A DNA stretch of 12,132 nucleotides from Pseudomonadota bacterium (GTDB lineage: Bacteria; Pseudomonadota; Alphaproteobacteria; Acetobacterales; Acetobacteraceae). This document shows positions 2 through 12,132 of this stretch, piece after piece. Numbering within the stretch: position 1 is the first letter of the stretch; every line of letters begins with the position of its first letter. The position numbers and the translations under genes are program-made. Location of the stretch: assembly GCA_021785335.1 (NCBI GenBank), contig JAJYFW010000011.1:1-12132 (forward strand). Direction: 5' to 3'. The notes beneath the pieces were generated by a model. That model ran no database searches, was not told the DNA's origin, and saw nothing but the letters and a program-made list of their open reading frames with translations.

Positions 2-1189
2 ACCGTGGATGCACGGTTCCGTGGCGATCTTGGCATCGTCGCCTCGGTCGCATTAGCGCGCTTTCCGGGCAGCGCGGGCGGTTTCCTCCATGACGGGCAG
101 GTGCTGGCGGCCGTCCCAGCCTTGCCGCCCCCGTCGGCGATGCCGGCGCTGCGCGAGGCGGCAACCTCCGCCGTCTCAAATTCGGCCGACGCAGCGATGA
201 CGATCGCGCTCGGGACCGCGCAGCTGGCGCTGCGCGTCTGCCCGCTACGCGGTCCGGTGCCGAACCTGGTCGCATTCGTGACGAGCCCGCTGCCCGCGGC
301 CGGGCAGAGCCCGGCCCTCCGCCTGGGCCTTGGCGCCCTGCTCGCCTTGATGCTCGCCCTGACCGCCGGCCTCGGCTGGGTTCTCGCCGGCATTGTCCGT
401 CGTGCGCACGCCATCGAGTCGGCACTCGCGGCGGTGGGCGGGGACGGGCTGCCGCATATCGGCCCGACCGGCGAGGTCGCCTTCGACCGTATCACCGCAG
501 CACTCAACGAGGCCGGGGAACGCCTGCGCGCGGCAGAAGCCGCCCGTGCCACACTGGCCGCGCGGGTTGCCGGAAGCGAGCGCCTAGTGGCACTCGGCCG
601 CATCGCCGCGGGAGTCGCCCACGAAATCCGAAACCCGCTGGCCGCGATCCGGCTGCGTGTCGAGGGACTGCCGGCGAGCGAGCAGGTGCGTACCGAGGCC
701 CTGCTGACCCAGATCGCGCGGATCGATCGGCTGATCAGCGAGTTGCTGTCCGCCACCCAGACGCCGGTGCCTCATCCGGTTGCCACCGATCTGCGGCTTC
801 TGCTCGAGGAGGTTGTCGCGGCACACGCGCCAATCGACGTCGCGAACCCGATCCGGACCGCGGTGCTGGACCCTGAACTGACCCGCCGCATCCTCGACAA
901 CCTCGCCGCCAATGCCCGGCAGGCAACACCCGCTAGTGGCCGTGTGCGCATCGAGGTGTCGCGTGACGATCGGCACCTGCTGATCGCGGTCGAGGATGAG
1001 GGGCCTGGCGTCGATCCCGCGATCGCCGGACGGATCTTCGAGCCCTTCGTCACCGGCCGCGCCGATGGTACGGGGCTCGGGCTCACCATCGCGCGCGAGC
1101 TTGCGGAAGCGCAGGGTGGCACGCTGCGGCTCGATCCTTCCCCACGCGGCGCCCGCTTCGTTCTCGCCCTGCCCTGGAGCGAACCCTGA
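2..1189 (+). CDS. Sensor histidine kinase, 5'-truncated by window edge
   Basis: Membrane sensor kinase that should autophosphorylate on a histidine and pass the phosphate to the response regulator encoded next. Numbering from the first in-frame GTG (position 5): an extracytoplasmic-looking segment (about 1-105), one transmembrane helix (about 106-130), a linker with HAMP-like character, then the HisKA dimerisation domain with H206 in the motif AHEIRNPL. The HATPase_c domain has the N box (NLAANARQA, 299-307), G1 (DEGPGV, 331-336) and G2 (GTGLGL, 355-360), all intact. Two-TM sensors of this class normally have an N-terminal helix before the sensor domain. None is visible and the frame is open to the window edge, so the GTG is probably internal. 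The stop TGA shares one base with the next ATG (TGATG), indicating translational coupling. The periplasmic part has no obvious metal-binding cluster, so the signal is unknown. Confidence 0.93.
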   Translation, partial: TVDARFRGDLGIVASVALARFPGSAGGFLHDGQVLAAVPALPPPSAMPALREAATSAVSNSADAAMTIALGTAQLALRVCPLRGPVPNLVAFVTSPLPAAGQSPALRLGLGALLALMLALTAGLGWVLAGIVRRAHAIESALAAVGGDGLPHIGPTGEVAFDRITAALNEAGERLRAAEAARATLAARVAGSERLVALGRIAAGVAHEIRNPLAAIRLRVEGLPASEQVRTEALLTQIARIDRLISELLSATQTPVPHPVATDLRLLLEEVVAAHAPIDVANPIRTAVLDPELTRRILDNLAANARQATPASGRVRIEVSRDDRHLLIAVEDEGPGVDPAIAGRIFEPFVTGRADGTGLGLTIARELAEAQGGTLRLDPSPRGARFVLALPWSEP

Positions 1190-2553
1190 TGGCGCACATC
1201 CTGATCGTGGACGACGATGCGGGGCTGCGGGCGAGCCTGTCCGAAGCCTTGGTCGATCTCGGCCATACCGCGGAGGAAGCGCCCGATGGCGCCGCGGGGC
1301 TGGTCCGCATCCGCCACGGCGGCATCGACGCTGTGCTGCTCGACCTACGTATGCCGGGGATGGACGGGCTCGCGGTGCTGCGGGCGCTGTGGGGTGAGAA
1401 GGCGCCGCCGGTCGCGGTGCTGACCGCCGTGCCCACGGCCGCAAACACGATCGAGGCGATGCGGCTCGGCGCCGTTGATCATCTCGCCAAGCCGGTTGGC
1501 CGCGCGGCACTGAAGACGCTGATCGCGCGTTTGCTGGCGACGCCACCGGCGACAGCCGAGCTTGCCCCGCCGATCGCCGCGGACGAGATCGTCGCGGTTT
1601 CCGAATCGATGCGCGGGGTAATGAAGGCGATCGGCCGTCTGGCGGACTCGCAAGCCACTGTCCTCATCACGGGCGAGACTGGAACCGGCAAGGAGGTCAT
1701 CGCCCGCGCCCTGCACCGCCACGGCAGCCGCGCCGCGCACCCGTTCGTGGCGGTCAACTGCGCGGCGATCCCGACCGGCCTGCTGGAATCCGAGTTGTTC
1801 GGCCATCGCCGTGGCGCGTTTACCGGCGCTGTCGCGGACGCGCCCGGCAGCATCCGCGCCGCCGACCACGGCACGCTGTTCCTCGATGAGATCGGGGACA
1901 TGGACGCCGCTATGCAGGCGAAGCTCCTGCGAGTGCTGGAGATGCGAGAGGTCGTACCGGTCGGCGGCAGCCGGCCCATCGCCGTCGACGTCCGCATCAT
2001 TGCCGCGACGCATCGCGACCTGGCGGAGCGGGTGTCGGAAGGAAAGTTTCGCGAGGACCTCTACTACCGTCTCGGCGTGGTGCCGCTGCATCTGCCGCCG
2101 CTGCGCGAGCGCCTCGCGGACATCCTGCCATTGGCTGAGCGCTTTCTCGGCCCAGGACGAACGCTTTCGGCCGCCGCCGCGGCGCGCCTGCTGGCGCATC
2201 CCTGGCCAGGCAATGTGCGGGAGTTGCGCAACGCGATGGAACGCGTCGCGACGCTGGGTCGGGGGCGGATCGTCGAGGTGGCCGAACTCGATTTCCTGGG
2301 CGCGGTCCATCCGCCACCTGAGCCGCAGGCGTCGACGCTCGCGGAGGCCGTTGCGCAACTCGAGGCGAGGATGATTCGCGAGGCGCTGGAGGCGACGGGA
2401 GGCAACCGCGCGGAGGCCGCGCGGCGACTCGGGATCCACCGGCAGTTGCTCTACGAGAAACTCCGCCGGCTGGACCCCACGATGTCCGGAAGCCGGACAG
2501 ACGGTGTCAGCGAAGACGACGGCGCTCCCCCTCGAGAGAGCCCGCAAACGTAG
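1189..2553 (+). CDS. NtrC-family sigma-54-dependent response regulator
   Basis: A 454-residue transcriptional activator with the full three-domain layout. The receiver domain (about 1-115) has acidic residues D8-D10, phospho-acceptor D52, T79 and K101. The AAA+ domain (about 135-365) has Walker A GETGTGKE (162-169), the sigma-54-contacting GAFTGA loop (209-214), Walker B LFLDEIGD (230-237) and the PWPGNVREL motif near 338-346. A Fis-type helix-turn-helix lies at about 396-428. With GAFTGA intact it should be a true enhancer-binding protein that remodels RNA polymerase-sigma-54. It overlaps the kinase gene by one base and is almost certainly its partner. After the DNA-binding domain it carries a hydrophilic tail of about 25 residues (430-454). 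That tail's coding sequence contains the perfect palindrome at 2483-2499, so the gene end probably doubles as a binding site for its own product. The nearest visible target is the secreted protein gene downstream. Confidence 0.96.
   Translation: MAHILIVDDDAGLRASLSEALVDLGHTAEEAPDGAAGLVRIRHGGIDAVLLDLRMPGMDGLAVLRALWGEKAPPVAVLTAVPTAANTIEAMRLGAVDHLAKPVGRAALKTLIARLLATPPATAELAPPIAADEIVAVSESMRGVMKAIGRLADSQATVLITGETGTGKEVIARALHRHGSRAAHPFVAVNCAAIPTGLLESELFGHRRGAFTGAVADAPGSIRAADHGTLFLDEIGDMDAAMQAKLLRVLEMREVVPVGGSRPIAVDVRIIAATHRDLAERVSEGKFREDLYYRLGVVPLHLPPLRERLADILPLAERFLGPGRTLSAAAAARLLAHPWPGNVRELRNAMERVATLGRGRIVEVAELDFLGAVHPPPEPQASTLAEAVAQLEARMIREALEATGGNRAEAARRLGIHRQLLYEKLRRLDPTMSGSRTDGVSEDDGAPPRESPQT
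2483..2499. promoter_or_regulatory. Candidate enhancer (UAS) for the NtrC-type regulator
   Basis: Perfect inverted repeat TGTCCGG-AAG-CCGGACA: 7-bp arms, 3-bp spacer. It lies within codons 432-437 of the regulator, downstream of its helix-turn-helix. The centre is about 110 bp upstream of the transcript start predicted from the -24/-12 promoter at 2575-2590, inside the usual 80-200 bp range for sigma-54 enhancers. Fis-type domains bind such dyads as dimers. The assignment to this regulator is inference from position and symmetry. Confidence 0.55.
2505..2521. promoter_or_regulatory. Possible second, degenerate enhancer site
   Basis: This 17-bp stretch keeps the outer TGTC and GAC of the palindrome at 2483-2499 and matches it at 9 of 17 positions. 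It starts exactly 22 bp after it, about two helical turns. Paired sites on one DNA face are common for NtrC-type activators, but the inner positions do not match, so this is a weak call. Confidence 0.2.
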
Positions 2554-2574
2554 TTAATTCAAAGTATTATGTTT

Positions 2575-2590
2575 TGGCACGCCGGCTGCT
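2575..2590 (+). promoter_or_regulatory. Sigma-54 (-24/-12) promoter
   Basis: The sequence TTGGCACGCCGGCTGCT (2574-2590) matches the RpoN consensus YTGGCACGRNNNTTGCW at the whole TGGCACG block and at 4 of 5 positions of the -12 block. The invariant GG (2576-2577) and GC (2588-2589) are separated by exactly 10 bp, the required spacing. The predicted transcript start is near 2601, leaving a leader of about 37 nt before the ATG at 2638. It sits directly between a sigma-54 activator and the gene it would drive. Confidence 0.85.
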
Positions 2591-2637
2591 GCGTGATCCG
2601 CGCCCGGGCATCGGAGCCCGGCAGAACGGAGATCAAC

Positions 2638-3336
2638 ATGACGCGCTTCAAGACCACGCTGCTTGCCGCGACGGCCAGCCTCGTCCTGGCGGTGCCCGCC
2701 TTCGCGCAGGGCGCCGGTCCCTTCGACCCCAATCAGCTTCCGGCGGTGAGCGGCAAGGTGGCGAGCTATACCGTGACACCGCGCGGCGACGTGGATGGGT
2801 TCCTGCTCGCCGACGGCGTCGAGGTGCATGTACCGCCCTTCGACAGCACGGCGCTCGTCTACGCCGTCCGGCCCGGCGACGCCGTGACCGTGCATGGGCT
2901 GCGCACTCGTAACGGCGCCATGGTGGCTGCGATGAGCGTCACCAACGACGCCACGCACGCGACCGTCAACGTTGAGCCGCCGCGATGGGGACACCACTGG
3001 TTTGGCCAGAAGCTGCAGGCGACCGGCACGATCAAGGAACCCCTGCATGACCCTCGCGGTACGGTGAACGGCGTGCTGCTGTCCGACGGCACGCAGGTCC
3101 GCATGCCGCCGCGCGACGCGGCCCAGATGGCGGCCATGCTGGCGGTGGGCAAGACGATTTCAGTGCAGGGCGTGGGGTATCAGGGGCCGCTTGGCCGCAT
3201 GATCGCCGCCCGGGCCATCGGGCCCGACGCCCAGCACATGACAAGGATCGAGCCGCCGCACCCGCACCACTTCGACCACATGCCGTTCCGCCATGGGCCT
3301 CATGGGCATGAACGCATGGGGCATCCGGCCGGCTAG
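2638..3336 (+). CDS. Secreted duplicated OB-like-domain protein with His/Met-rich tail
   Basis: A 232-residue protein of unknown function, probably periplasmic. The start is the ATG at 2638, preceded by GGAG (2628-2631) at 6-nt spacing and followed by a signal peptide (basic MTRFK, hydrophobic stretch, cleavage likely after AFA at 21-23). The mature part contains two copies of one domain, at about 36-106 and 126-196. Both have PRGxVxGxLLxDGxxVxxPP followed by a GxxxxVxG strand, suggesting small OB-like beta barrels. They are joined by a linker with WGHHWFG. The C-terminal 33 residues (200-232) hold nine histidines and three methionines, suggesting metal binding. The sigma-54 promoter in front and the NtrC-type two-component genes upstream suggest it is their induced output, by analogy with ZraSR and periplasmic ZraP, although it does not resemble ZraP. 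The metal role is inference. An upstream ATG at 2569 falls inside the promoter and is rejected. Confidence 0.85.
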   Translation: MTRFKTTLLAATASLVLAVPAFAQGAGPFDPNQLPAVSGKVASYTVTPRGDVDGFLLADGVEVHVPPFDSTALVYAVRPGDAVTVHGLRTRNGAMVAAMSVTNDATHATVNVEPPRWGHHWFGQKLQATGTIKEPLHDPRGTVNGVLLSDGTQVRMPPRDAAQMAAMLAVGKTISVQGVGYQGPLGRMIAARAIGPDAQHMTRIEPPHPHHFDHMPFRHGPHGHERMGHPAG

Positions 3337-3337
3337 G

Positions 3338-4084
3338 CTACGAGGACCCGCCCGCGCCCATTTCTGCGAGGATGGCGCGGGCGGCTGCCGCGGGGTCGGG
3401 GGCGGCGATTACGGGGCGCGCGACCACCAGGTAATCCGATCCCCTGGCCAGGGCCTCCGCCGGGGTCGCGATGCGCACCTGGTCGCCCTTTGCGGCGCCG
3501 GCAGGGCGGATGCCGGGCGTTATGACCAGCAGTCGATCATTGCCGGCCGCCGCACGCAGGGCACGCGGATCGTCGGCGGCCGAGGCAACGATGCCGTGCA
3601 CGCCGCATTCCACCGCCTGGCGGGCGCGGCGCCGAACCAATGCCTCGACCCCTTCGGCGTAACCGGCCTCGTGCAGCGCCGCGTCATCGAGGCTGGTCAG
3701 GACCGTGATGGCTAGAATCCGGGTCGGCGTGCCGGCGGCGCCGCGCACGGCCGCCGCCATGACCTGCGGTTCGCCATGGACTGTCACGAAGCTCGCCCCG
3801 CGCTCGGCGGCACGCGCTACGCCCTGCTCCACCGTCTGGCCGATGTCGTGGAGCTTCATGTCAAGGAACAGCTCGCGCCCGCCGGTGGTGAGGTCGCGGA
3901 TCAGCGCCTCAGCCCCTTCCGCGTAAGCGAGCCACGGGCCCAGCTTGTAGAAGGAAACGATGCCGTCGAGACGCTCGATGATCGCGCGCGCGGCGGCAGC
4001 CGTGGGCAGGTCGAGCCCGACGATCAGCCGCCGCGACATCTCCTGCGGCACGTCGCGTGCCGCCTGCTTGGGTGCCGCAGTCAT
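3338..4084 (-). CDS. pyrF: Orotidine 5'-phosphate decarboxylase
   Basis: Catalyses the last step of de novo UMP synthesis, decarboxylating OMP to UMP in the cytoplasm. The 248-residue TIM barrel shows the family's catalytic residues: D25 (VGLDLP), K47 (FYKLGP) and the D75-x-K77-x-x-D80 signature (FLDMKLHDI). The phosphate-binding loops TPGIRP (189-194) and VARPVI (221-226, R223) are also present. Length is normal for a short bacterial PyrF with a modest N-terminal extension of about 15 residues. The alternative start at M16 has an AGGAG directly touching its ATG, too close to work, so the longer start is kept although its own ribosome binding site is weak. The stop lies one base from the stop of the convergent secreted-protein gene. 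A lipoprotein gene lies 73 bp upstream on the same strand, so the two could be co-transcribed, with no functional link. Confidence 0.96.
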   Translation of the reverse strand: MTAAPKQAARDVPQEMSRRLIVGLDLPTAAAARAIIERLDGIVSFYKLGPWLAYAEGAEALIRDLTTGGRELFLDMKLHDIGQTVEQGVARAAERGASFVTVHGEPQVMAAAVRGAAGTPTRILAITVLTSLDDAALHEAGYAEGVEALVRRRARQAVECGVHGIVASAADDPRALRAAAGNDRLLVITPGIRPAGAAKGDQVRIATPAEALARGSDYLVVARPVIAAPDPAAAARAILAEMGAGGSS

Positions 4085-4823: not shown

Positions 4824-6443
4824 ATGCCCCGCATGACTGGTGGCGAAGCCATCGTCGCCTCGCTCCTCGCCCACGGTATCGACACCGTCTTCGGCCTGCC
4901 CGGGGTACAGCTCTATGGATTGTTCGACGCCCTGGCGCGCGAGGCCAACCGCATCCGCGTGATCAATGCGCGCCACGAGCAGGGGGTCGCGTACATGGCA
5001 CTCGGGGCGGCAGCCTCGACAGGGAAACCGGCGGTCTATTCAGTGGTGCCGGGGCCCGGCGTGCTCAACACCACCGCGGCGCTCGCCACCGCGGCCGGCA
5101 TCAACGCGCCGATGCTGTGCGTCACCGGCCAGGTCCCTAGCAGCTTCCTCGGCCGGGAGCGCGGTCATCTGCACGAGCTGCCGGACCAGCTCGCGACCCT
5201 GCGCACCCTCGCCAAGCGCGCGGAGCGGATCGAAGACGCCGAGGCGGCGCCGCGCCTCGTTGCTGAAGCGTTCCAGACGATGATGGCAGGGCGGCGGGGC
5301 CCGGCGACGCTCGAGATGCCCTGGGACAAGTTCCAGGAGGCAGGCGAGGTGACGCCAGTCGATCCCCTGCCCGCCATCGCGCCCCCCGCACCGGACCCGA
5401 CGCGCATCGCGGAGGCGGCGAAGCTGGCGCTGGCCGCCAAGGCGCCGCTGATTGTCGTGGGCGGCGGAGCGGTCGTGGCAGGCGACGCGGTGCGCGCGCT
5501 CGCCGAGCGCCTTGGGGCACCCGTGGTCAGCTATCGCAGCGGGCGCGGTGTGCTCGATGACGACCATCCGCTCTCCATTACCGTTGCCGCGGTGCATGCG
5601 CTTTGGCCGCAGACGGATCTCGTGATCGGCATCGGCTCGCGGCTGGAAGGACCCGGCTGGCGGTGGACGCGCCAACCGACCCCGGCGAAGCTGATCCGCA
5701 TCGATATCGATCCGGTGGAGATGCGTCGCCTGCCCGCCGATGTTGCGCTGGTTGCCGACGCGCCGGCGGCGACCGCCGCCCTGGTGGCGGCCCTGGGCCC
5801 CGGCCCCGCGCCCGGTCGGCGCGAGGATGTTGCCAACGCGAAACGCGCCGCCGCCGCGCTCATCACGGAAGCGCGCCCGCATCACGAGTATCTGCAGAAG
5901 ATCCGTGCCGCCCTGCCCGCCGACGGATTCCTGGTCGATGAGATGTGCCAGGCCGGCTACACGAGTTGGTTCGCGTTCCCGGTGCATCGTCCGCGGACGA
6001 TCATCTCCTCAGGATTCCAGGGCACGCTCGGATCGGGCTTTCCCACGGCACTGGGCGTGGCCGCCGCGAATCCGGGACGCAAGGTGATTTCGCTCACCGG
6101 TGATGGCGGCTTCCTGTTCGGCGCGACGGAGCTTGCCACCGCGGTGCAGTTCCGCCTCGGCGTCACCGTGATCGTGTTCGAGAACGGCGCCTACGGCAAC
6201 GTCAAGCGTGACCAGCAGCGGCTGTTCGAGGGAAGGCACGCGGGGGCGGATCTCGCCAACCCGGATTTCGTGCGCTTCGCCGAGAGCTTCGGCGTGCCCG
6301 GGTTCCGGGTCGAGCGCGACGCTGACTTCGCGGACACGCTCGCAGCCGCGCTTGAAGTCAACGGGCCGGCGCTGGTGCATGTGCGCACGAAGCTCGCGGA
6401 GGAGGTGAGCCCCTGGCGCTTCATCGCGCCAAGCCGGCCGTGA
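4824..6443 (+). CDS. Acetolactate-synthase-like thiamine diphosphate-dependent enzyme
   Basis: A 539-residue cytosolic thiamine diphosphate enzyme of the pyruvate oxidase/acetolactate synthase (IlvB-like) superfamily. The N-terminal PYR domain (about 1-170) carries the catalytic glutamate E52 in ARHEQG. The middle Rossmann-like domain (about 190-325) contains VVGGGAV and the segment IGIGSRLEGPG. The C-terminal PP domain has GFQGTLGSGFPTALG (398-411) and the Mg-ThDP motif GDGGF (426-430) with N454. A clean AAGGAG (4812-4817) at 6-nt spacing supports the start. There is no regulatory small subunit (ilvH/ilvN) next to it, and it stands alone on its strand, so a biosynthetic acetolactate synthase role is doubtful. 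A 2-oxoacid decarboxylase or carboligase of unknown substrate is more likely. Its 3' end overlaps the convergent isomerase gene by 23 bp. Confidence 0.88.
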   Translation: MPRMTGGEAIVASLLAHGIDTVFGLPGVQLYGLFDALAREANRIRVINARHEQGVAYMALGAAASTGKPAVYSVVPGPGVLNTTAALATAAGINAPMLCVTGQVPSSFLGRERGHLHELPDQLATLRTLAKRAERIEDAEAAPRLVAEAFQTMMAGRRGPATLEMPWDKFQEAGEVTPVDPLPAIAPPAPDPTRIAEAAKLALAAKAPLIVVGGGAVVAGDAVRALAERLGAPVVSYRSGRGVLDDDHPLSITVAAVHALWPQTDLVIGIGSRLEGPGWRWTRQPTPAKLIRIDIDPVEMRRLPADVALVADAPAATAALVAALGPGPAPGRREDVANAKRAAAALITEARPHHEYLQKIRAALPADGFLVDEMCQAGYTSWFAFPVHRPRTIISSGFQGTLGSGFPTALGVAAANPGRKVISLTGDGGFLFGATELATAVQFRLGVTVIVFENGAYGNVKRDQQRLFEGRHAGADLANPDFVRFAESFGVPGFRVERDADFADTLAAALEVNGPALVHVRTKLAEEVSPWRFIAPSRP

Positions 6444-7062
6444 GACCGGAAAGGCGGGCCACGAGCGCTCGCTGTCGCGACCACTCGATCGCGTCCTCCA
6501 TGCGGTCGTCGCCCCAGAACAGCTCGCCGCGGGTGACGAAGCTTGGCGATCCGAACACGCCGCGCGCCTTCGCCGCCTCGGTCGCGGCCGCGAGCGCGTC
6601 GGCAGCGGCGGGCGCGGCGGCTTCGGCGAGCACCCTGGTGGCGTCCTGACCGACAGCGCGCAGGCTTGCGGAGAGGCTGGGCTCGGTTCCGGGTTCCAGC
6701 CCTTCGCCGAACCACTGCCGGTAGGTTTCGCGGACATAGTCTTCGCCCCAACCCTCGGCGAAACCGACCATTACGACGTGGTGCGCGGTGTCGTAAGCGG
6801 TGAGAGGATACGGGGCCGGCACCCTGGCCGGAACACCGAGCCGCGCGGCACGGCGCTCGATGTCGCGCCACATATACGCGGTCTTCACCGGCTTGCCGAT
6901 GAAGGGGATGTTGTTCTGTTCCTTCATGATCGCGCGCACGCCGAAGGGACGCCAGATGAAGGTGACGCCCTCGCGCCGCGCAACGTCGGCGATACGCGAG
7001 ACCGAGAGATACGTGTAGGTGCTGGCCACCGAGAACCAGAACTCGATCGGCTCGGACATCAT
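6421..7062 (-). CDS. DsbA-family 2-hydroxychromene-2-carboxylate isomerase-like protein
   Basis: A 213-residue thioredoxin-fold protein of the GST-kappa/HCCA isomerase group, which in its best-known members performs glutathione-dependent isomerisation in naphthalene-type aromatic degradation. The N-terminal motif FWFSVASTYTYLS (8-20) aligns with the family's FDFxSPxSYL, S14 matching the active-site serine; the usual proline is replaced by threonine. The C-terminal GVFGSPSF (168-175, with the cis-proline at 173) and GELFWGDDRM (179-188) are typical. Two adjacent ATGs (7060-7062, 7057-7059) can start it; neither has a strong ribosome binding site. No other aromatic-degradation genes are visible, so the substrate is unknown and a general glutathione-linked oxidoreductase role is possible. 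It overlaps the convergent thiamine diphosphate enzyme gene by 23 bp and diverges from the MFS gene. Confidence 0.85.
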   Translation of the reverse strand: MMSEPIEFWFSVASTYTYLSVSRIADVARREGVTFIWRPFGVRAIMKEQNNIPFIGKPVKTAYMWRDIERRAARLGVPARVPAPYPLTAYDTAHHVVMVGFAEGWGEDYVRETYRQWFGEGLEPGTEPSLSASLRAVGQDATRVLAEAAAPAAADALAAATEAAKARGVFGSPSFVTRGELFWGDDRMEDAIEWSRQRALVARLSGLTAGLAR

Positions 7063-7088
7063 GCGCCCCGACGTTGTTCCGTAGGTGA

Positions 7089-7102
7089 GCGTAACGTGAC
7101 GC
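7089..7102. promoter_or_regulatory. Near-palindrome in divergent intergenic region
   Basis: GCGTAACGTGACGC matches its own reverse complement at 12 of 14 positions. It lies between the divergent isomerase (start 7062) and MFS (start 7181) genes, 27 bp upstream of the former. It could be an operator serving both genes. No regulator gene is adjacent, so no factor is proposed. Confidence 0.2.
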
Positions 7103-7166
7103 CATGTCGCGGGCAAATCACCGTTGCGCGACCGGATGGCGCGCGCCGGCCAACGAGGAGCCGGGG

Positions 7167-7172
7167 AAGGAG
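7167..7172 (+). promoter_or_regulatory. Ribosome binding site fixing a GTG start
   Basis: AAGGAG sits 8 nt before the GTG at 7181. The in-frame TTG at 7124 and ATG at 7136 have no comparable site, and they would add a hydrophilic leader ahead of the first membrane helix. Confidence 0.75.
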
Positions 7173-7180
7173 ATAGCGTA

Positions 7181-8533
7181 GTGTGGCGCGACGTATTGCG
7201 TGGCCATAACGGGCGGATCACCGCCACCGCCTGCCTCGGCGAGGCGATCTACGCGATGAACGTCTTCCTCGTTTCCACCGCGATGCCCTCGGTGGTGCGC
7301 GACATCGGCGGCGTGCGCTTCCTCGCCTGGGTCAACACGCTGTATCTCATCGCGGCGATCGTGGTTGGCGCGGCTACGGGTTTCCTCAAGCAGCAACTCG
7401 GATCGCGCCGCCTGATGCTCACCGGGGCGGCATGCTTCGCAATCGGCTCACTTGCCGCGGCGGCGGCTCCGGTCATGCCGGTCATGCTGATCGGGCGGAC
7501 CCTGCAAGGCGCAGGCGAGGGTGCGATCGGGGCCTCCGCATACGCGCTGCTGGCCGAGCGATTGCCCAGCAAGCTGATCCCAAAGGCGCTCGGGGCGATG
7601 GCGATGGTGTGGGCGGTAGGCGCACTGGTAGGGCCGCTCGCCAGCGGTTTACTGACGGAGTTGTTGTCCTGGCGGGTCGCGTTGCTGATGAACCTGCCGT
7701 TGATCGCGGCCTTTGCCGCGCTCGTACTCGGCTCGGCACCGCCAGGCAGCGCCGTGGAAGCAAGCCAGCGGCTTCCCGTGTCCCGCCTCGCGTTTCTCGC
7801 CGCCGGGATCATACTCGTGGCAATCGCCTCGGTCGCCGGGGACATCGCCTGGCTGGCGCTCGCCTGTGGCGGGGCGGCGCTCGTGGGCGTGGTCGCCGCC
7901 GACCGCCTGGCCACGGTGCGCCTTTTCCCCCGCGACGCTTTTCGGCCGGCAAGCCAACTCGGCGCCGTGCTCTGGGTAGCGCTGCTGATGCCGCTCGGCC
8001 AGGCGAGCACCTCGGTCTTCCTGCCCATCACGGTCCAGAATCTCTGGGGTTACCGGCCGGTCGTCGCCGGCATTGTCGTCGCCACGATGGCGCTGTCGTG
8101 GAGCGCGTCGGCGCTGCTCGTGACCCTGCCGCGCGGGCTGACGCCCGTGCTTTGCATCCGCGCCGGCGCGATCCTGACCGCGCTCGGGCTTGCCGCGGCG
8201 ACGCTCGCCATCCCCCACCATGCGCTGCTGCCCCTGCTCGCTGCCCAGGTCACCATCGGGGTCGGCTTCGGCCTGGGCTGGGGCTTCCTCAACCAAGTCG
8301 GGGCCGAGGCCGCGCCGGAGGGCGAGCGCGATCTTGCCGCCGCGCTGCTGCCGACGACGCAGAACACGGGCTACGCGCTCGGTGCCGCAGTCGCAGGCCT
8401 CATTGCCAACGCCACCGGCTATGCGCAGGAACTCGCGATGGGCGCCGGCCATGGCGGGGTCGCCGTGTTCGCCATGGGAACCGCCCTTGCGGCGCTCGGG
8501 GCGCTGGCGAGCCTGCGCCTCAAGGCTCGATGA
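7181..8533 (+). CDS. MFS transporter, DHA2/EmrB-like drug efflux family
   Basis: A 450-residue inner-membrane major facilitator permease, most likely a proton-driven exporter of drugs or small organic molecules. It starts at GTG 7181, chosen for its AAGGAG. The N-terminal half shows a helix around 20-37, a second helix followed by a motif-A-like loop (TGFLKQQLGSRRL, 66-78), the RTLQGAGEGA segment (106-115), and a motif-C-like stretch (WAVGALVGPLASGLL, 144-158) followed by WRVALLMNLPL. These are typical of the DHA2/EmrB group. Helices continue to the C-terminus, with the conserved PTTQNTGYALGAAVAGLI (391-408) near the end. The length is closer to a 12- than a classical 14-helix protein, so helix number is uncertain. 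There is no HlyD-type partner (EmrA) nearby, so it probably works alone. The substrate cannot be predicted. Confidence 0.88.
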   Translation: MWRDVLRGHNGRITATACLGEAIYAMNVFLVSTAMPSVVRDIGGVRFLAWVNTLYLIAAIVVGAATGFLKQQLGSRRLMLTGAACFAIGSLAAAAAPVMPVMLIGRTLQGAGEGAIGASAYALLAERLPSKLIPKALGAMAMVWAVGALVGPLASGLLTELLSWRVALLMNLPLIAAFAALVLGSAPPGSAVEASQRLPVSRLAFLAAGIILVAIASVAGDIAWLALACGGAALVGVVAADRLATVRLFPRDAFRPASQLGAVLWVALLMPLGQASTSVFLPITVQNLWGYRPVVAGIVVATMALSWSASALLVTLPRGLTPVLCIRAGAILTALGLAAATLAIPHHALLPLLAAQVTIGVGFGLGWGFLNQVGAEAAPEGERDLAAALLPTTQNTGYALGAAVAGLIANATGYAQELAMGAGHGGVAVFAMGTALAALGALASLRLKAR

Positions 8534-8549
8534 CGGGACTGCGCCCCGC

Positions 8550-8564
8550 CTGACGCGGCGTCAG
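8550..8564. terminator. Inverted repeat at convergent gene junction
   Basis: Perfect CTGACG-CGG-CGTCAG in the 27-bp gap between the MFS stop and the usp stop; its right arm includes the usp stop codon (TCA on this strand). It could form a 6-bp GC-rich stem in transcripts from either side. No T-run follows, so it is at best a weak bidirectional terminator or an mRNA 3'-end stabiliser. Confidence 0.3.
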
Positions 8565-9316
8565 TGCGACATCAGCACCGGCACCGTCATTCCCTCGAGC
8601 AGGCTGCGGGTGACGCCGCCAAGCACACGCTCACGCATCGGCGTCTGGCCATAGGCGCCGGTGACCAGCAGCCCGATACCGAGATCGGAGGCCTCGTTGA
8701 GCAGCGCCGCTGCTTCCGGAACGCCGTCCGCGACGGTGCGCGAAACCATCACGTTCACCCCGTGATGCGCGAGGTGAGCGGCGACGTCGACCGCGCCGAT
8801 CTCGACCTCCCAGTCATCGCTGGGATCCGTCGCGACCGAGAGCACGGTGACATTTTCCGCGCGCTTCAGGAGCGGCAGCGCGTCGTGCACCGACCGCGTC
8901 GCCTCCCGGCTGCCGTTCCAGCCGATCAGTACCCGGCCCGGCGGCAGGTCGAAGCTGCCGACATAGGGGAGGATCAGCACCGGCCTGCCGACCCGCATCA
9001 GAACCGCCTCGATCTCCTCCCGCATGATCGCGGTGTCGCGGCGACGCGGATCCGCCTGGCCCAGGACCACGAGGTCCGACCGGCGGGCGAGCGCCAGCTT
9101 CGCGGAGCGCGTCCCCGCCGTCAGCGATCCGGCCTCGAGCCCGTTCCGACGCACGGTCTCGGCGAAAAGCGAGGCACATGGCGCCTCCTCGGCGCCCGCC
9201 ATCGCGGCGCCCTCGAGCCGCGCCTCCCACGCGACTGCCAGGCGGGCGGCGGTGTCCAGTACCTTCGTGCCGCCCTCGCTGGCGTCGAAGAGAACGGCGA
9301 TGTCCTTGATGCTCAT
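8561..9316 (-). CDS. Tandem-domain universal stress protein (UspA family)
   Basis: A 251-residue cytoplasmic protein with two Usp domains (about 1-118 and 126-250), the usual size of the tandem class. The second domain has IGWNGSREA (131-139) and the ATP-binding signature G-2x-G-9x-G (G220, G223, G233) in TGAYGQTPMRERVLGGVT; glycine replaces the frequent serine after the last G. The first domain lacks a canonical signature (it has VLGQADPRRRDTA), so only the C-terminal half is likely to bind ATP. It starts at ATG 9316, with a strong GGAGG (9322-9326) at 5-nt spacing; the in-frame TTG upstream is ignored. It diverges from hemN across about 93 bp holding an FNR-type box and a 14-bp palindrome. 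Low-oxygen or redox induction is therefore plausible, as known for usp genes under FNR/ANR in other Proteobacteria. Confidence 0.92.
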   Translation of the reverse strand: MSIKDIAVLFDASEGGTKVLDTAARLAVAWEARLEGAAMAGAEEAPCASLFAETVRRNGLEAGSLTAGTRSAKLALARRSDLVVLGQADPRRRDTAIMREEIEAVLMRVGRPVLILPYVGSFDLPPGRVLIGWNGSREATRSVHDALPLLKRAENVTVLSVATDPSDDWEVEIGAVDVAAHLAHHGVNVMVSRTVADGVPEAAALLNEASDLGIGLLVTGAYGQTPMRERVLGGVTRSLLEGMTVPVLMSH

Positions 9317-9333
9317 GGGAACCTCCAAAAGCA

Positions 9334-9347
9334 ATTTCCGCGGAAAT
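9334..9347. promoter_or_regulatory. Perfect 14-bp palindrome upstream of usp
   Basis: ATTTCCGCGGAAAT is fully self-complementary and lies 18 bp upstream of the usp start, where the core promoter or an operator would be. It does not match the FNR box 14 bp further on. A dimeric regulator site is the natural reading, but I cannot name the factor. Confidence 0.4.
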
Positions 9348-9360
9348 CCATGTGGGGTCG

Positions 9361-9374
9361 TTGACGCAGATCAA
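9361..9374. promoter_or_regulatory. FNR/FixK-type box in the usp-hemN divergent region
   Basis: TTGAC-GCAG-ATCAA fits the FNR/FixK consensus TTGAY-N4-RTCAA without mismatch. Its centre (9367.5) is 41-43 bp upstream of the position where the hemN -10 would place the transcript start, the class II activator geometry. hemN is a well-known FNR/FnrL/FixK target in Proteobacteria. On the usp side the same spacing would start transcripts inside the Shine-Dalgarno, so control of usp by this box is less certain. Confidence 0.85.
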
Positions 9375-9399
9375 GTCGCGGTGCGGCCGGGGTGGGCAT

Positions 9400-9405
9400 C
9401 ATAAT
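9400..9405 (+). promoter_or_regulatory. Candidate hemN -10 element
   Basis: CATAAT differs from TATAAT at one base and ends 4 nt before the hemN ATG (9410). The -35 region would be covered by the FNR box. Normal -10 to start spacing (4-9 nt after the hexamer) puts +1 at about 9410-9412, that is at or inside the start codon. Confidence 0.5.
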
Positions 9406-9409
9406 TGTT

Positions 9410-10750
9410 ATGGACATTCGCACCCTGCTCGCCCGCTATGGCGGCGACGTTCCCCGGTACACGTCCTACCCGACGGCGCCGCATTTCGGACCGTCGGTGG
9501 ACGCGGACACATATGCATCCTGGCTCGCGGCGACGGATCCGACGGCGCCTGTGTCACTCTATCTGCATGTGCCGTTCTGCGACGAGCTGTGCCTCTACTG
9601 CGGCTGCAGCACCACGGTCGCGCGCCGGGCGGATGTACGGCAGAGCTACGCGAACCTGCTGGTCCGCGAGATCGGACTGGTTGCCGCGGCGCTCGGCAAG
9701 CGTCGGCGCGTGACGCACATCCACTGGGGCGGGGGCACGCCGACCGCGTTGCCGGGCAAAGCGATGCGCGAGGTCGACGCGGCGCTGCGCCAGCATTTCG
9801 ACCTTGAGAACGACGCCGAAGTGGCGGTCGAGCTCGATCCGCGCCATCTCGGCGGCGACCGGATAGCGGCGCTGGCAGCCATCGGTACGCGCCGGGCCAG
9901 CTTCGGGGTCCAGGATTTCGACCCGCAGGTGCAGCAGGCGATCGGGCGCATCCAGTCGCATGCTCAGACCGCGACCGCGGTTGCCGCCATGCGCGGAATC
10001 GGGGTGCGTTCGATCAACCTCGACCTCATGTACGGGCTGCCGCACCAGACGCCGGCGGGCGCGGCGGAGACGGCGCGCCGGGCGCTGGCCCTCGCCCCCG
10101 ATCGGGTGGCGGTGTTCGGCTACGCGCATGTGCCCTGGATGCGCCAGCGCCAGAAGCTGCTGCCCGAGGCGGCTTTGCCAGGGCCGCTCGAGCGCTTCGC
10201 CAGCCGGGCGGCGATCGATGCCACCATGCGCGAGGCGGGCTTCGTCGCCATCGGGCTCGACCATTACGCCAGGTCGCAGGACAGCCTCGCGCGGGCGGCG
10301 GCCGAGGGACATCTGGTCCGCAACTTCCAGGGCTACACGACCGACGATGCGCCGGTCCTGCTCGGCTTTGGGGCCTCGTCGATCGGCACGCTGCCGCAGG
10401 GGTTCGTGCAGAACCACGCGGACGTTCCCTCTTGGCGCGAGGCACTGAACGCCGGGCGGCTGCCGGTCGCGCGCGGCATCGCGCCGACGCCGGAGGACCG
10501 GATGCGGGCGGAGATCATCTCGCGCCTGCTGTGCGACCTCTCGGTCAATCTCGGCGCCGTGGCGCGGCGGCACAACCTGCCGCTCGCCTGGCCGACGGCG
10601 GCGCTGCGGACGATGGAGCGCGACGGCCTGCTGGTCTTCGATCACGGGCGCATCCGCGTGCGTGAGGAGGGCCGCCCGTTCCTGCGCAGCATCGCCGCGC
10701 TGTTCGACACGCGGCTCGCGCTCGCCGGACGGCACAGCCAAGCGGTCTGA
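9410..10750 (+). CDS. hemN: Oxygen-independent coproporphyrinogen III oxidase (dehydrogenase)
   Basis: Radical-SAM enzyme that oxidatively decarboxylates coproporphyrinogen III to protoporphyrinogen IX without oxygen, in anaerobic or micro-oxic haem (and, where present, bacteriochlorophyll) synthesis. The 446 residues include the [4Fe-4S] motif C57-x3-C61-x2-C64-G-C66 (FCDELCLYCGC), the SAM-binding GGGTP (107-111), and the N-terminal RYTSYPTAPHF (16-26). That last motif is characteristic of true HemN rather than the HemW haem chaperone, as is the length near 450. The ATG at 9410 is preferred; an in-frame GTG at 9392 would add six residues (MGIIIV) and has no better ribosome binding site. No Shine-Dalgarno lies in the normal window before the ATG, and the promoter geometry suggests a leaderless or nearly leaderless mRNA. 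It is divergent from usp and is likely activated under low oxygen via the box at 9361-9374. Confidence 0.95.
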   Translation: MDIRTLLARYGGDVPRYTSYPTAPHFGPSVDADTYASWLAATDPTAPVSLYLHVPFCDELCLYCGCSTTVARRADVRQSYANLLVREIGLVAAALGKRRRVTHIHWGGGTPTALPGKAMREVDAALRQHFDLENDAEVAVELDPRHLGGDRIAALAAIGTRRASFGVQDFDPQVQQAIGRIQSHAQTATAVAAMRGIGVRSINLDLMYGLPHQTPAGAAETARRALALAPDRVAVFGYAHVPWMRQRQKLLPEAALPGPLERFASRAAIDATMREAGFVAIGLDHYARSQDSLARAAAEGHLVRNFQGYTTDDAPVLLGFGASSIGTLPQGFVQNHADVPSWREALNAGRLPVARGIAPTPEDRMRAEIISRLLCDLSVNLGAVARRHNLPLAWPTAALRTMERDGLLVFDHGRIRVREEGRPFLRSIAALFDTRLALAGRHSQAV

Positions 10751-10761
10751 GCGGGTCAGAC
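10745..10761. terminator. Inverted repeat spanning both stop codons of convergent genes
   Basis: Perfect GTCTGA-GCGGG-TCAGAC: the left arm ends with the hemN TGA and the right arm begins with the complement of the SIS-gene TGA. A 6-bp stem with a 5-nt loop could form in either transcript. No clean T-run follows, so termination is only a possibility. Confidence 0.35.
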
Positions 10762-11760
10762 GGTTCGTGTGACTTTTGCGAGCCCCGGCGGGCGGTCCGG
10801 GTCCCGCCCGCGGGAACGTGAGGCAGCCTCGGCCGCGAGATAAAAGCGCAGCAGCAATGTGGCGAGGTCGCAAACCGGGTCGTCCGGCGGCAGTGACGGC
10901 AGGCGCGCGGCACCGGCGAGATCGACCGTCGAAAGCATCGGAACGCCCGCGGCGAGCGGTTCCAGCACGGCGCGCGCCGGCGCCAGCGCCCGATCCTCGG
11001 CCAGCAGGGCAACGATCGGGAAGGCGGCGCCGGCCAGGGCACGCGGCCCGTGCGCCAGTTCGGCGGCGCTGAAGGCCAGCGCCGGGAGGCCGCAGGTCTC
11101 AGCGAGTTTCAGCCCCGCCTCCTCCACAATGCCGAGGCCGGGACCACGGCCGACGACAAAGAGGTGCTGTGCCGTGGCCAGCAGGGATTCCAGCGCCGAC
11201 CAATCGAGCGCCGCCGCTTCGCGCAGGCGCGCGGGAAGCCGTGCCAGGCCGGGCCTTGCGTGTCCGCTCCAGGTCTCGATCAAGGCGAGGCCGGCCGCGA
11301 TGGTCGCCAGCACGGTCTTCGTCGCCGCAACGCTTCGCTCCGGACCCGCGCGGATATCAAGCACCGCCTCGCAGGTGGCAGCGAGCGGCGAGGCGGCGTC
11401 GTTGACGATGGCGAGAGTGAAGGCACCGCCCGCCCGCGCCGACCGCGCCTCCGCGATCAGGTCCGGGCTTTTGCCGGACTGGCTCACGGCGAGGAACAGC
11501 GCGCCCCTGAGTTTCTGGCGCACACCATAGACCGAGGCGATGGAAGGCATGCCGGCGGCCGCGACCAGGCCCAGCTCCTGCGCCAGCACGTAGCGCAGCA
11601 CTGTGCCGGCGTGGCCGGAACTGCCGCGCGCGGAGAGCAGCACGAAGGGCGGGTCGAGGGCGCGCAGCCGCGCGCCGAGAGCCGCGAAATCCGCTCCCGC
11701 GAGGCAGCGCGCCACCGCCTCCGGCGCCTCCAGCGTCTCGGTGCGCATCAGGCTGGTCAT
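10756..11760 (-). CDS. Double-SIS-domain protein (NagB-II/GlmS/AgaS-like)
   Basis: A 334-residue cytoplasmic sugar-phosphate isomerase or deaminase candidate with two SIS domains and no glutaminase domain. SIS-1 has ARGSSGHAG (44-52), the phosphate-binding SQSGKSPD (93-100) and the GPERSVAATKT segment (139-149, E141). SIS-2 has VGRGPGLGIVEEAGLKLAE (203-221) and AELAHGPRAL (233-242), close to the GlmS isomerase pattern. Proteins of this build include type II glucosamine-6-phosphate deaminase (NagB-II) and AgaS, which deaminate amino-sugar phosphates. That is the best guess, but the exact substrate is unproven. The start ATG (11760) overlaps the stop of the upstream permease gene as ATGA, so the two are translationally coupled and probably serve one uptake and catabolic pathway, perhaps amino sugars or muropeptide fragments. 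Confidence 0.88.
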   Translation of the reverse strand: MTSLMRTETLEAPEAVARCLAGADFAALGARLRALDPPFVLLSARGSSGHAGTVLRYVLAQELGLVAAAGMPSIASVYGVRQKLRGALFLAVSQSGKSPDLIAEARSARAGGAFTLAIVNDAASPLAATCEAVLDIRAGPERSVAATKTVLATIAAGLALIETWSGHARPGLARLPARLREAAALDWSALESLLATAQHLFVVGRGPGLGIVEEAGLKLAETCGLPALAFSAAELAHGPRALAGAAFPIVALLAEDRALAPARAVLEPLAAGVPMLSTVDLAGAARLPSLPPDDPVCDLATLLLRFYLAAEAASRSRGRDPDRPPGLAKVTRTV

Positions 11761-12132
11761 CGTGCCCTCAGCCTCGGGTCGAGCCGGTCCTGCAGCCCGT
11801 CGCCCACCAGGTTGAAGCCGAGGGCGGCGAGCAGGATCGCGAGCCCCGAGAACACCGCGGGCCAAGGGGAGAAGGTCAGCAGGGAACGAGCGTCGGACAG
11901 CATGCGCCCGAGCGAGGCCGCGGGCGGCTGGGTGCCGAGCCCCAGAAAGGAGAGCGATGCCTCCACCAGGATCGCGGTGGAGAGCGAGAGGGAGGTCTGC
12001 ACCAGAATCACCGGCGCAAGGTTCGGCACCACGTGGCGGGTCAGCAGGCGCCAGGGTGAGGCGCCGACCGCGCGCGAGGCGGCGACGTAGTCGGATTCGC
12101 GCAGCACCAGCGCCGGGGCGCGCAGCACGCGC
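11757..12132 (-). CDS. ABC transporter permease, DppC/OppC family, C-terminal part
   Basis: The last 125 or so residues of an inner-membrane permease; the 5' part lies beyond the window. It contains the cytoplasmic EAA loop that contacts the ATPase (ESDYVAASRAVGASPW and onwards to HVVPNLAPV). Two hydrophobic segments follow, and the tail GFNLVGDGLQDRLDPRLR is highly characteristic of DppC/OppC-type permeases. These systems import di- and oligopeptides, nickel, or oligosaccharide-like compounds. The ATGA overlap with the SIS gene downstream suggests the cargo contains an amino sugar, as in SIS/NagA-linked Dpp-type operons, but the missing upstream genes (other permease, binding protein, ATPases) are needed to say more. 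Confidence 0.92.
   Translation of the reverse strand, partial: RVLRAPALVLRESDYVAASRAVGASPWRLLTRHVVPNLAPVILVQTSLSLSTAILVEASLSFLGLGTQPPAASLGRMLSDARSLLTFSPWPAVFSGLAILLAALGFNLVGDGLQDRLDPRLRAR

Follow-up and report, generated by a model that had tools for sequence, protein, structure and literature searches.

The stretch of DNA analysed here (hereafter the window) is 12,132 nt of contig JAJYFW010000011.1, from an Acetobacteraceae assembly (GCA_021785335.1), and it opens with three forward-strand genes, for which we use the shorthand K, R and T, followed by a convergent pyrF. K (2..1189, +), whose N-terminus is cut off by the left edge of the window, encodes a sensor histidine kinase with HisKA and HATPase_c domains according to Pfam. 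R (1189..2553, +), whose start overlaps the K stop, encodes an NtrC-type sigma-54 response regulator by both Pfam and NCBIfam models, while T (2638..3336, +) encodes a protein of 232 aa that is predicted to be secreted, with a signal peptide recognized by eye, two predicted OB domains and a His/Pro-rich tail. Ahead of T lies a sigma-54 -24/-12 promoter preceded by a pair of candidate enhancer sites, and the conservation of this switch across related loci makes it very likely, on sequence grounds, that R together with sigma-54 activates T.

The two signalling proteins carry the parts expected of such a pair. The codon for the phospho-acceptor His of K lies at position 620 (+) of the window, and the second of two periplasmic Cys at 239-241 (+); both Cys are invariant in all 64 full-length relatives that were aligned with the window K after open reading frames (ORFs) shorter than 430 aa had been left out. 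Structure prediction for a close relative (L003) matched the sensor domain to the fold of known sensors, and the domain accordingly looks Cache/PAS-like in the model. In the window R we found the receiver aspartate D52, a Fis-type helix-turn-helix and, at 1813-1830, the intact GAFTGA loop that an earlier reading of the letters alone (hereafter the sequence-only reading) had reported, which together make it an NtrC-type activator. Among 68 aligned R sequences (window included, ORFs shorter than 400 aa left out) D52 is present in every one and the exact GAFTGA in 50, with variation of the loop in the other 18.

The promoter TTGGCACGCCGGCTGCT (2574-2590, +) has GG at 2576-2577 and GC at 2588-2589 with exactly the N10 spacing given in the sequence-only reading, and differs at one position from the sigma-54 -24/-12 consensus, TTGGCACGNNNNTTGCW; it would place the +1 of T near 2601. 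When GG and GC are required, neither strand of the window has another site within two mismatches (one three-mismatch site occurs at 3926), and dinucleotide shuffles of the window gave a mean of 0.02 sites at one mismatch or fewer, on which grounds we rejected a chance occurrence. It is also conserved in relatives. For the comparison we used the best 80 of 94 candidate loci from genome contigs, labelled Acetobacteraceae/Rhodospirillales, Bradyrhizobium, Methylobacterium, Bosea and Skermanella, with some labelled otherwise, in most of which K and R lie upstream of T. A -24/-12 element within three mismatches (GG and GC fixed) was present in the 350 bp upstream of T in 71 of these 80 loci, with L001, which has no upstream DNA, scored as a miss, compared with 3.9% of random stretches of equal length drawn from these loci. 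The sigma factor itself, RpoN, was found in 19 of 20 related genomes, among them that of the nearest relative, G110.

Upstream of the promoter we identified two upstream activator sequences (UAS). UAS1, TGTCCGGAAGCCGGACA (2483..2499, +), is an exact 17-bp dyad (TGTCCGG-AAG-CCGGACA) within the 3' end of R; UAS2, TGTCAGCGAAGACGACG (2505..2521, +), is a weaker 17-bp copy 22 bp downstream that has the GTC-N9-GAC core in common with it, and since they are 22 bp apart the two would lie on about the same helix face. Between UAS2 and the promoter is a site resembling those of integration host factor (IHF), ATTCAAAGTATTA (2557..2569, +), with one mismatch to the IHF consensus, WATCAANNNNTTR. The perfect dyad on which the sequence-only reading relied is therefore there to the base, but such dyads are no commoner in the window than expected by chance (26, vs 27.2 in shuffles), so that a lone dyad was rejected as sufficient evidence and needed comparative support, and the enhancer is in fact a pair of sites. 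The observation is thus confirmed and is larger than described, with a second UAS and an IHF-like site besides.

The comparative support was sought in the same loci after dropping L001, which leaves 79 and, with the window, 80 sequences. The arrangement GTC-N9-GAC-N7-GTC-N9-GAC is exact in 66 of the 79 loci, vs 0.2% of 3000 control stretches. When the gap was left free from 5 to 8, the pair was found upstream of T in 76 loci and the window (77/80), and only gaps of 6 and 7 occur. In 73 of these 77 sequences, 83-86 bp separate the centre of the pair from the -12, the best -24/-12 after it falls within three mismatches in 76, and an IHF-like site with no or one mismatch is present in 33 of the 77 spacers (2.4% for shuffled spacers). 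A strict scan, allowing at most one mismatch in the UAS and two in the promoter at a spacing of 82-88, returned 56 matches, spread over 55 of the 80 loci; the same loci reversed gave none. Conservation of dyad and promoter across orthologous loci, which had been proposed as a check, is thus largely borne out, and with it the proposal that the adjacent K-R pair probably controls T directly. Tandem dyadic enhancer sites upstream of a promoter also appear, by sequence, to be what an NtrC-type activator would use. Sigma-54 enhancers are usually held to tolerate changes in distance; the near-fixed distance seen here is unusual, and provides a natural system for asking why.

That the dyad and the -24/-12 arose by chance or as by-products of the R coding sequence, with T served by an ordinary promoter, draws on the chance-level frequency of the dyad alone and on the position of the UAS pairs, 66 of 77 of which lie in the end of R and all of those in one frame. 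The remaining 11 pairs lie outside R (six are intergenic and five have no R upstream in the stretch), so that coding constraint fails to explain the UAS, and we rejected a by-product of R on this basis. In addition, the spacing to the -12 is almost fixed and the same unit precedes other gene families too (see below), leaving this explanation barely credible. The gap within the pair also differs with context: it is 7 bp in all 66 pairs inside R (22 bp spacing) whereas of the 11 outside it ten have 6 bp (21 bp spacing; L014, L016, L018, L021, L025, L027, L030, L034, L041 and L042), with L012 having 7.

A second alternative keeps the sigma-54 promoter and assigns it an activator other than R. Further NtrC-type activators are indeed expected in these genomes; the UAS pair, however, accompanies R in Acetobacteraceae-type, Bradyrhizobium, Methylobacterium and Bosea loci, and where T is absent beside R it precedes a major facilitator superfamily (MFS) transporter gene directly after R (L183, L195), which makes another activator very unlikely.

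Some observations at these loci and beyond them count against control of T by R through this switch, or restrict how widely it holds. The loci are kin by descent and their counts are not independent. The UAS pair was missed in L039, by one mismatch, and in L043 and L046, whose stretches contain no R. Five of the seven Methylobacterium loci (L061, L062, L066, L072 and L077) have GA for GC at the -12, as TTGGCAYGNNAGTTGAC or similar, with the rest of the unit intact; a lineage-specific -12 variant is possible. A loose version of the pattern gave 50 matches in 41 genomes among 200 genomes of the G002 family, vs 55 in the reversed control, and was close to its control in the G003 family (10 vs 11) and the G007 family (7 vs 5), the control totals of these three scans having been counted by hand. 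Because the loose pattern does not stand out from its controls, lone sites count only when promoter, spacing and gene identity agree. In L180 the -12 before T is decayed and R is absent from the stretch, and a Methylocapsa plasmid T gene (L205) has neither the switch nor K-R in its stretch.

When sites were read together with their genes, the association was far clearer. In 14 genomes known to hold the cassette, a looser pattern matched in all 14, with 18 matches vs 5 in the control; no cassette genes were found at L091, L093 and L095, which are pattern matches from these genomes. Among the 200 genomes a match lay directly upstream of 33 of the 39 close T genes (E <1e-59) and of none of the 52 weaker ones. 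Besides L180, the close T genes lacking a match include L178, where the UAS pair is closer to the promoter, L181 and L182, with -24/-12 present and imperfect UAS pairs, and L179, where the UAS pair is imperfect and the -12 poor; the last of the six, G110:C225, starts at the end of a contig. Matches adjoining cassette genes, by tblastn or in fetched loci, made up 3 of 10 in the G003 family and 6 of 7 in the G007 family, and no cassette genes were found in L192-L194, L196-L199 and L203 from these families, in which the switch is patchy. The cassette also occurs on plasmids: we examined four of the 20 plasmid records that match T, and those of Bradyrhizobium barranii and Acidiphilium multivorum have both UAS and promoter.

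Two observations on T relatives stand apart from these counts. The 52 weaker matches form a remote T subfamily without the switch, and the five such loci that we fetched (L187-L191) have no K or R in the stretch. One metagenome-assembled genome, B12_bin-0097, carries T with the switch at L033 and another, switchless T-like pair at L043.

Downstream of the promoter, the 5' leader of T would carry a hairpin (CCGGGC-ATCGGA-GCCCGG, 2604..2621, +) that recurs at the same leader position in relatives. After leaders under 25 or over 75 nt had been dropped, 72 of 77 remained, and removal of near-duplicates reduced these to 55. Counting positions from about +1, 34 of the 55 have a hairpin of five or more Watson-Crick pairs that starts at positions 3-10, where shuffles predict 3.5 and genomic controls 4.2; allowing G-U pairs raises this to 43, vs 14.7 expected. 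The stem lies upstream of the ribosome-binding site and its sequence varies by lineage, and because stem sequences differ between lineages the conservation points to an RNA structure. Folding energies of the leaders are unremarkable (mean z -0.45 for single leaders), and no Rfam RNA was matched at gathering scores.

T is not the only gene behind this switch. Outside the Acetobacteraceae-type loci, the genes behind T often include another T, an MFS transporter and a permease of the ArsB/CitMHS family, and in some loci a calcineurin-like phosphoesterase as well. The neighbour counts were redone by tblastn, since ORF clusters contained shadow ORFs, and on the same strand downstream of T in the 80 loci they show MFS in 33, permease in 27 and phosphoesterase in 6 (8 loci in all). 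Where at least 3 kb of downstream DNA was available, MFS was present in 29 of 30 loci of the non-Acetobacteraceae group vs 3 of 36 of the Acetobacteraceae group. The enhancer-promoter unit also stands before such genes when they are away from T, at a distance of 85 bp (L183) and 82 bp (L195) before the MFS genes directly after R, and of 85 bp (L044) and 84 bp (L224, one UAS mismatch) before phosphoesterase genes; in L201 the phosphoesterase unit (85 bp) has three promoter mismatches and a permease start behind it. In genome G055, T, MFS and phosphoesterase are on three contigs, each with the unit. A unit at 84 bp before a resistance-nodulation-division (RND) outer-membrane channel gene in L185, from the 200-genome search, is suggestive only, and the one before an RND adaptor gene in L184, with four promoter mismatches, is weak. 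As a separate observation, L186 encodes between R and T (2666-3010) a small secreted protein of 114 aa with no Pfam match; it has a unit of its own at 85 bp with three promoter mismatches.

The wider set of targets has its own counter-evidence. Of 16 loci scanned 12 lacked the unit, among them, within 1.5 kb, the two closest orthologues of the MFS gene in L183 (L212, 79% identity; L213, 76%). In G110 and G167, the two nearest relatives, no MFS or phosphoesterase homologues were found at E<=1e-40 (the permease was not sought), and each has one switch site. T thus looks like the sole target in the window's own lineage, as far as these searches of the two genomes tell. The one-target cassette of the sequence-only reading therefore fits the nearest relatives of the window and fails elsewhere, where MFS, phosphoesterase and permease genes share the operon or have their own switch.

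The T protein fits the description of a secreted protein with duplicated domains, in that a signal-peptide-like start (by eye) is followed by two repeated domains, each modelled as an OB fold (residues ~36-111 and ~124-195), with a five-strand barrel and a helix after strand 3 in both. No family in Pfam or NCBIfam matched the window T at E 1e-3; the match to DUF5666 (PF18914) reaches 18.2 bits, under the Pfam cut-off of 27. A sequence search of the PDB gave nothing useful, and no phage family matched T. The VIA-align list for T covered mainly residues 28-107. Of 168 relatives from the protein database, 36 were aligned with the window T (alignment A1, 37 sequences). The regulon offers a first way into the function of a secreted tandem OB-fold family whose window member is unnamed by Pfam and NCBIfam models. 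On its 3' side T is met by pyrF (orotidine-5'-phosphate decarboxylase; 3338-4084, -), one base separating the two stops.

These data bear on whether T is a metal-binding periplasmic chaperone in a zinc, copper or metalloid response like that of ZraSR. Nine His among the last 45 residues of T, the two invariant periplasmic Cys of K, the ArsB-like permease in 27 of the 80 loci and the plasmid copy of the cassette in Acidiphilium multivorum, a metal-tolerant species, would all suit such a role. Yet the 37-sequence alignment holds no invariant His, Met or Cys, which disfavours a dedicated metal site in the folded domains of T, the tail has no positional conservation, and the permease of L057 is nearer to CitMHS (163.6 bits in Pfam) than to ArsB (104.3) and falls under the NCBIfam ArsB cut-offs. 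We regard a metal chaperone as improbable.

At the sequence level the parts, their conservation, their geometry and the sharing of the switch between genes are plain, and from them we infer a mechanism. K would sit in the inner membrane, detect periplasmic stress through its periplasmic Cache/PAS-like sensor and phosphorylate R, and R would bind the tandem UAS1 and UAS2, some 85 bp ahead of the -12. A bend in the DNA at the IHF-like site could then bring R to the sigma-54 polymerase at the -24/-12, T would be transcribed from about 2601 into an mRNA carrying the 5' hairpin, and its product would be exported to act in the periplasm. The same switch would, in other lineages, drive a transport module (MFS, ArsB/CitMHS-family permease, phosphoesterase). 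A stress or toxicant-export response with T as a periplasmic component is most likely, because transport genes elsewhere carry the switch; the export role therefore rests on other lineages, the two nearest relatives being without MFS and phosphoesterase homologues, and it presumes an outward direction of transport. Taken as a whole, the regulatory link combined with a stress role is a probable explanation.

An alternative to the export response holds T to be mainly a feedback or accessory part of the sensor, which contacts the periplasmic domain of K and so adjusts kinase activity, the transport genes being later recruits in some lineages. Of the targets, T occurs next to K-R in the most varied lineages, and ZraP and QseG are reported precedents (PMC4987338, PMC6075780). 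T has no meaningful sequence similarity to either protein, however, L183 and L195 keep R and the switch with MFS in place of T, and switchless T-like proteins in many genomes (52 remote), with no K or R at L187-L191, imply a family role without this kinase. A feedback function is accordingly conceivable and somewhat unlikely. Within the preferred export response, a more specific and rather doubtful version can be framed: an undescribed, mainly alphaproteobacterial sigma-54 detoxification regulon, in which the Cys pair would sense periplasmic oxidation or toxicants that react with thiols, an enhancer unit of rigid geometry (a pair of 17-bp sites at 21-22 bp spacing, some 85 bp from the -12, plus an IHF-like site) would have been copied before T, MFS, permease and phosphoesterase genes, and T transcripts would carry a conserved 5' hairpin. 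An unannotated gene trio becomes a testable regulon, present in Acetobacteraceae-type bacteria, Bradyrhizobium, Methylobacterium, Bosea and Skermanella, for which candidate binding sites, promoters and targets can be named exactly.

The rest of the window (4824-12128) is ordinary-looking and encodes a thiamine pyrophosphate (TPP) enzyme, a DsbA-like oxidoreductase, an MFS transporter, a universal stress protein, a HemN-like radical SAM protein and a SIS-domain protein.

Among known systems, BaeSR/CpxAR-type envelope stress and efflux responses likewise place a periplasmic protein and exporters under one envelope sensor; their regulators are OmpR-type and work with sigma-70, and the likeness to K-R-T concerns design. 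DUF5666 proteins are matched weakly, as given above, and T has two tandem domains. No paper on the K-R-T system was found among the open-licence papers listed, judged by title and abstract opening, which is no proof of absence, and a term search of the main text of a paper on RpoN in Bradyrhizobium DOA9 gave no match (PMC13207237). A close parallel in design is ZraSR-ZraP of Escherichia coli and Salmonella, in which a two-component sigma-54 activator likewise has a secreted protein encoded next to it and switches on its gene. The likeness in design drawn by the sequence-only reading, with a different effector, holds up. R scores 337.1 bits vs the ZraR equivalog cut-off of 760, and K, truncated in the window, 118.4 vs the ZraS cut-off of 479. 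T is a predicted tandem OB protein whose best local alignment to ZraP has 11 identities in 37 columns, and it lies downstream in the same direction, whereas zraP is divergent; transporter targets have moreover been added here in other lineages. GlrK-QseG-GlrR (QseEGF) of E. coli shares a sigma-54 response regulator and repeated TGTC...GACA half-sites upstream of a -24/-12, and three TGTC-N10-GACA sites occur at E. coli glmY. PMC4987338 gives TGTC-N10-GACA as the GlrR binding site, and PMC6075780 links GlrKR/QseEGF to envelope homeostasis. The spacer is N10 for GlrR and N9 here, R scores 326.4 bits vs the GlrR cut-off of 763, the target here is a protein whereas glmY is a small RNA, and T has no similarity to QseG. 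Membership in ZraSR-ZraP or GlrKR was therefore rejected, R being below both cut-offs and T unlike both ZraP and QseG. Our conclusion is that K-R-T is a variant on the ZraSR/GlrR-like design.

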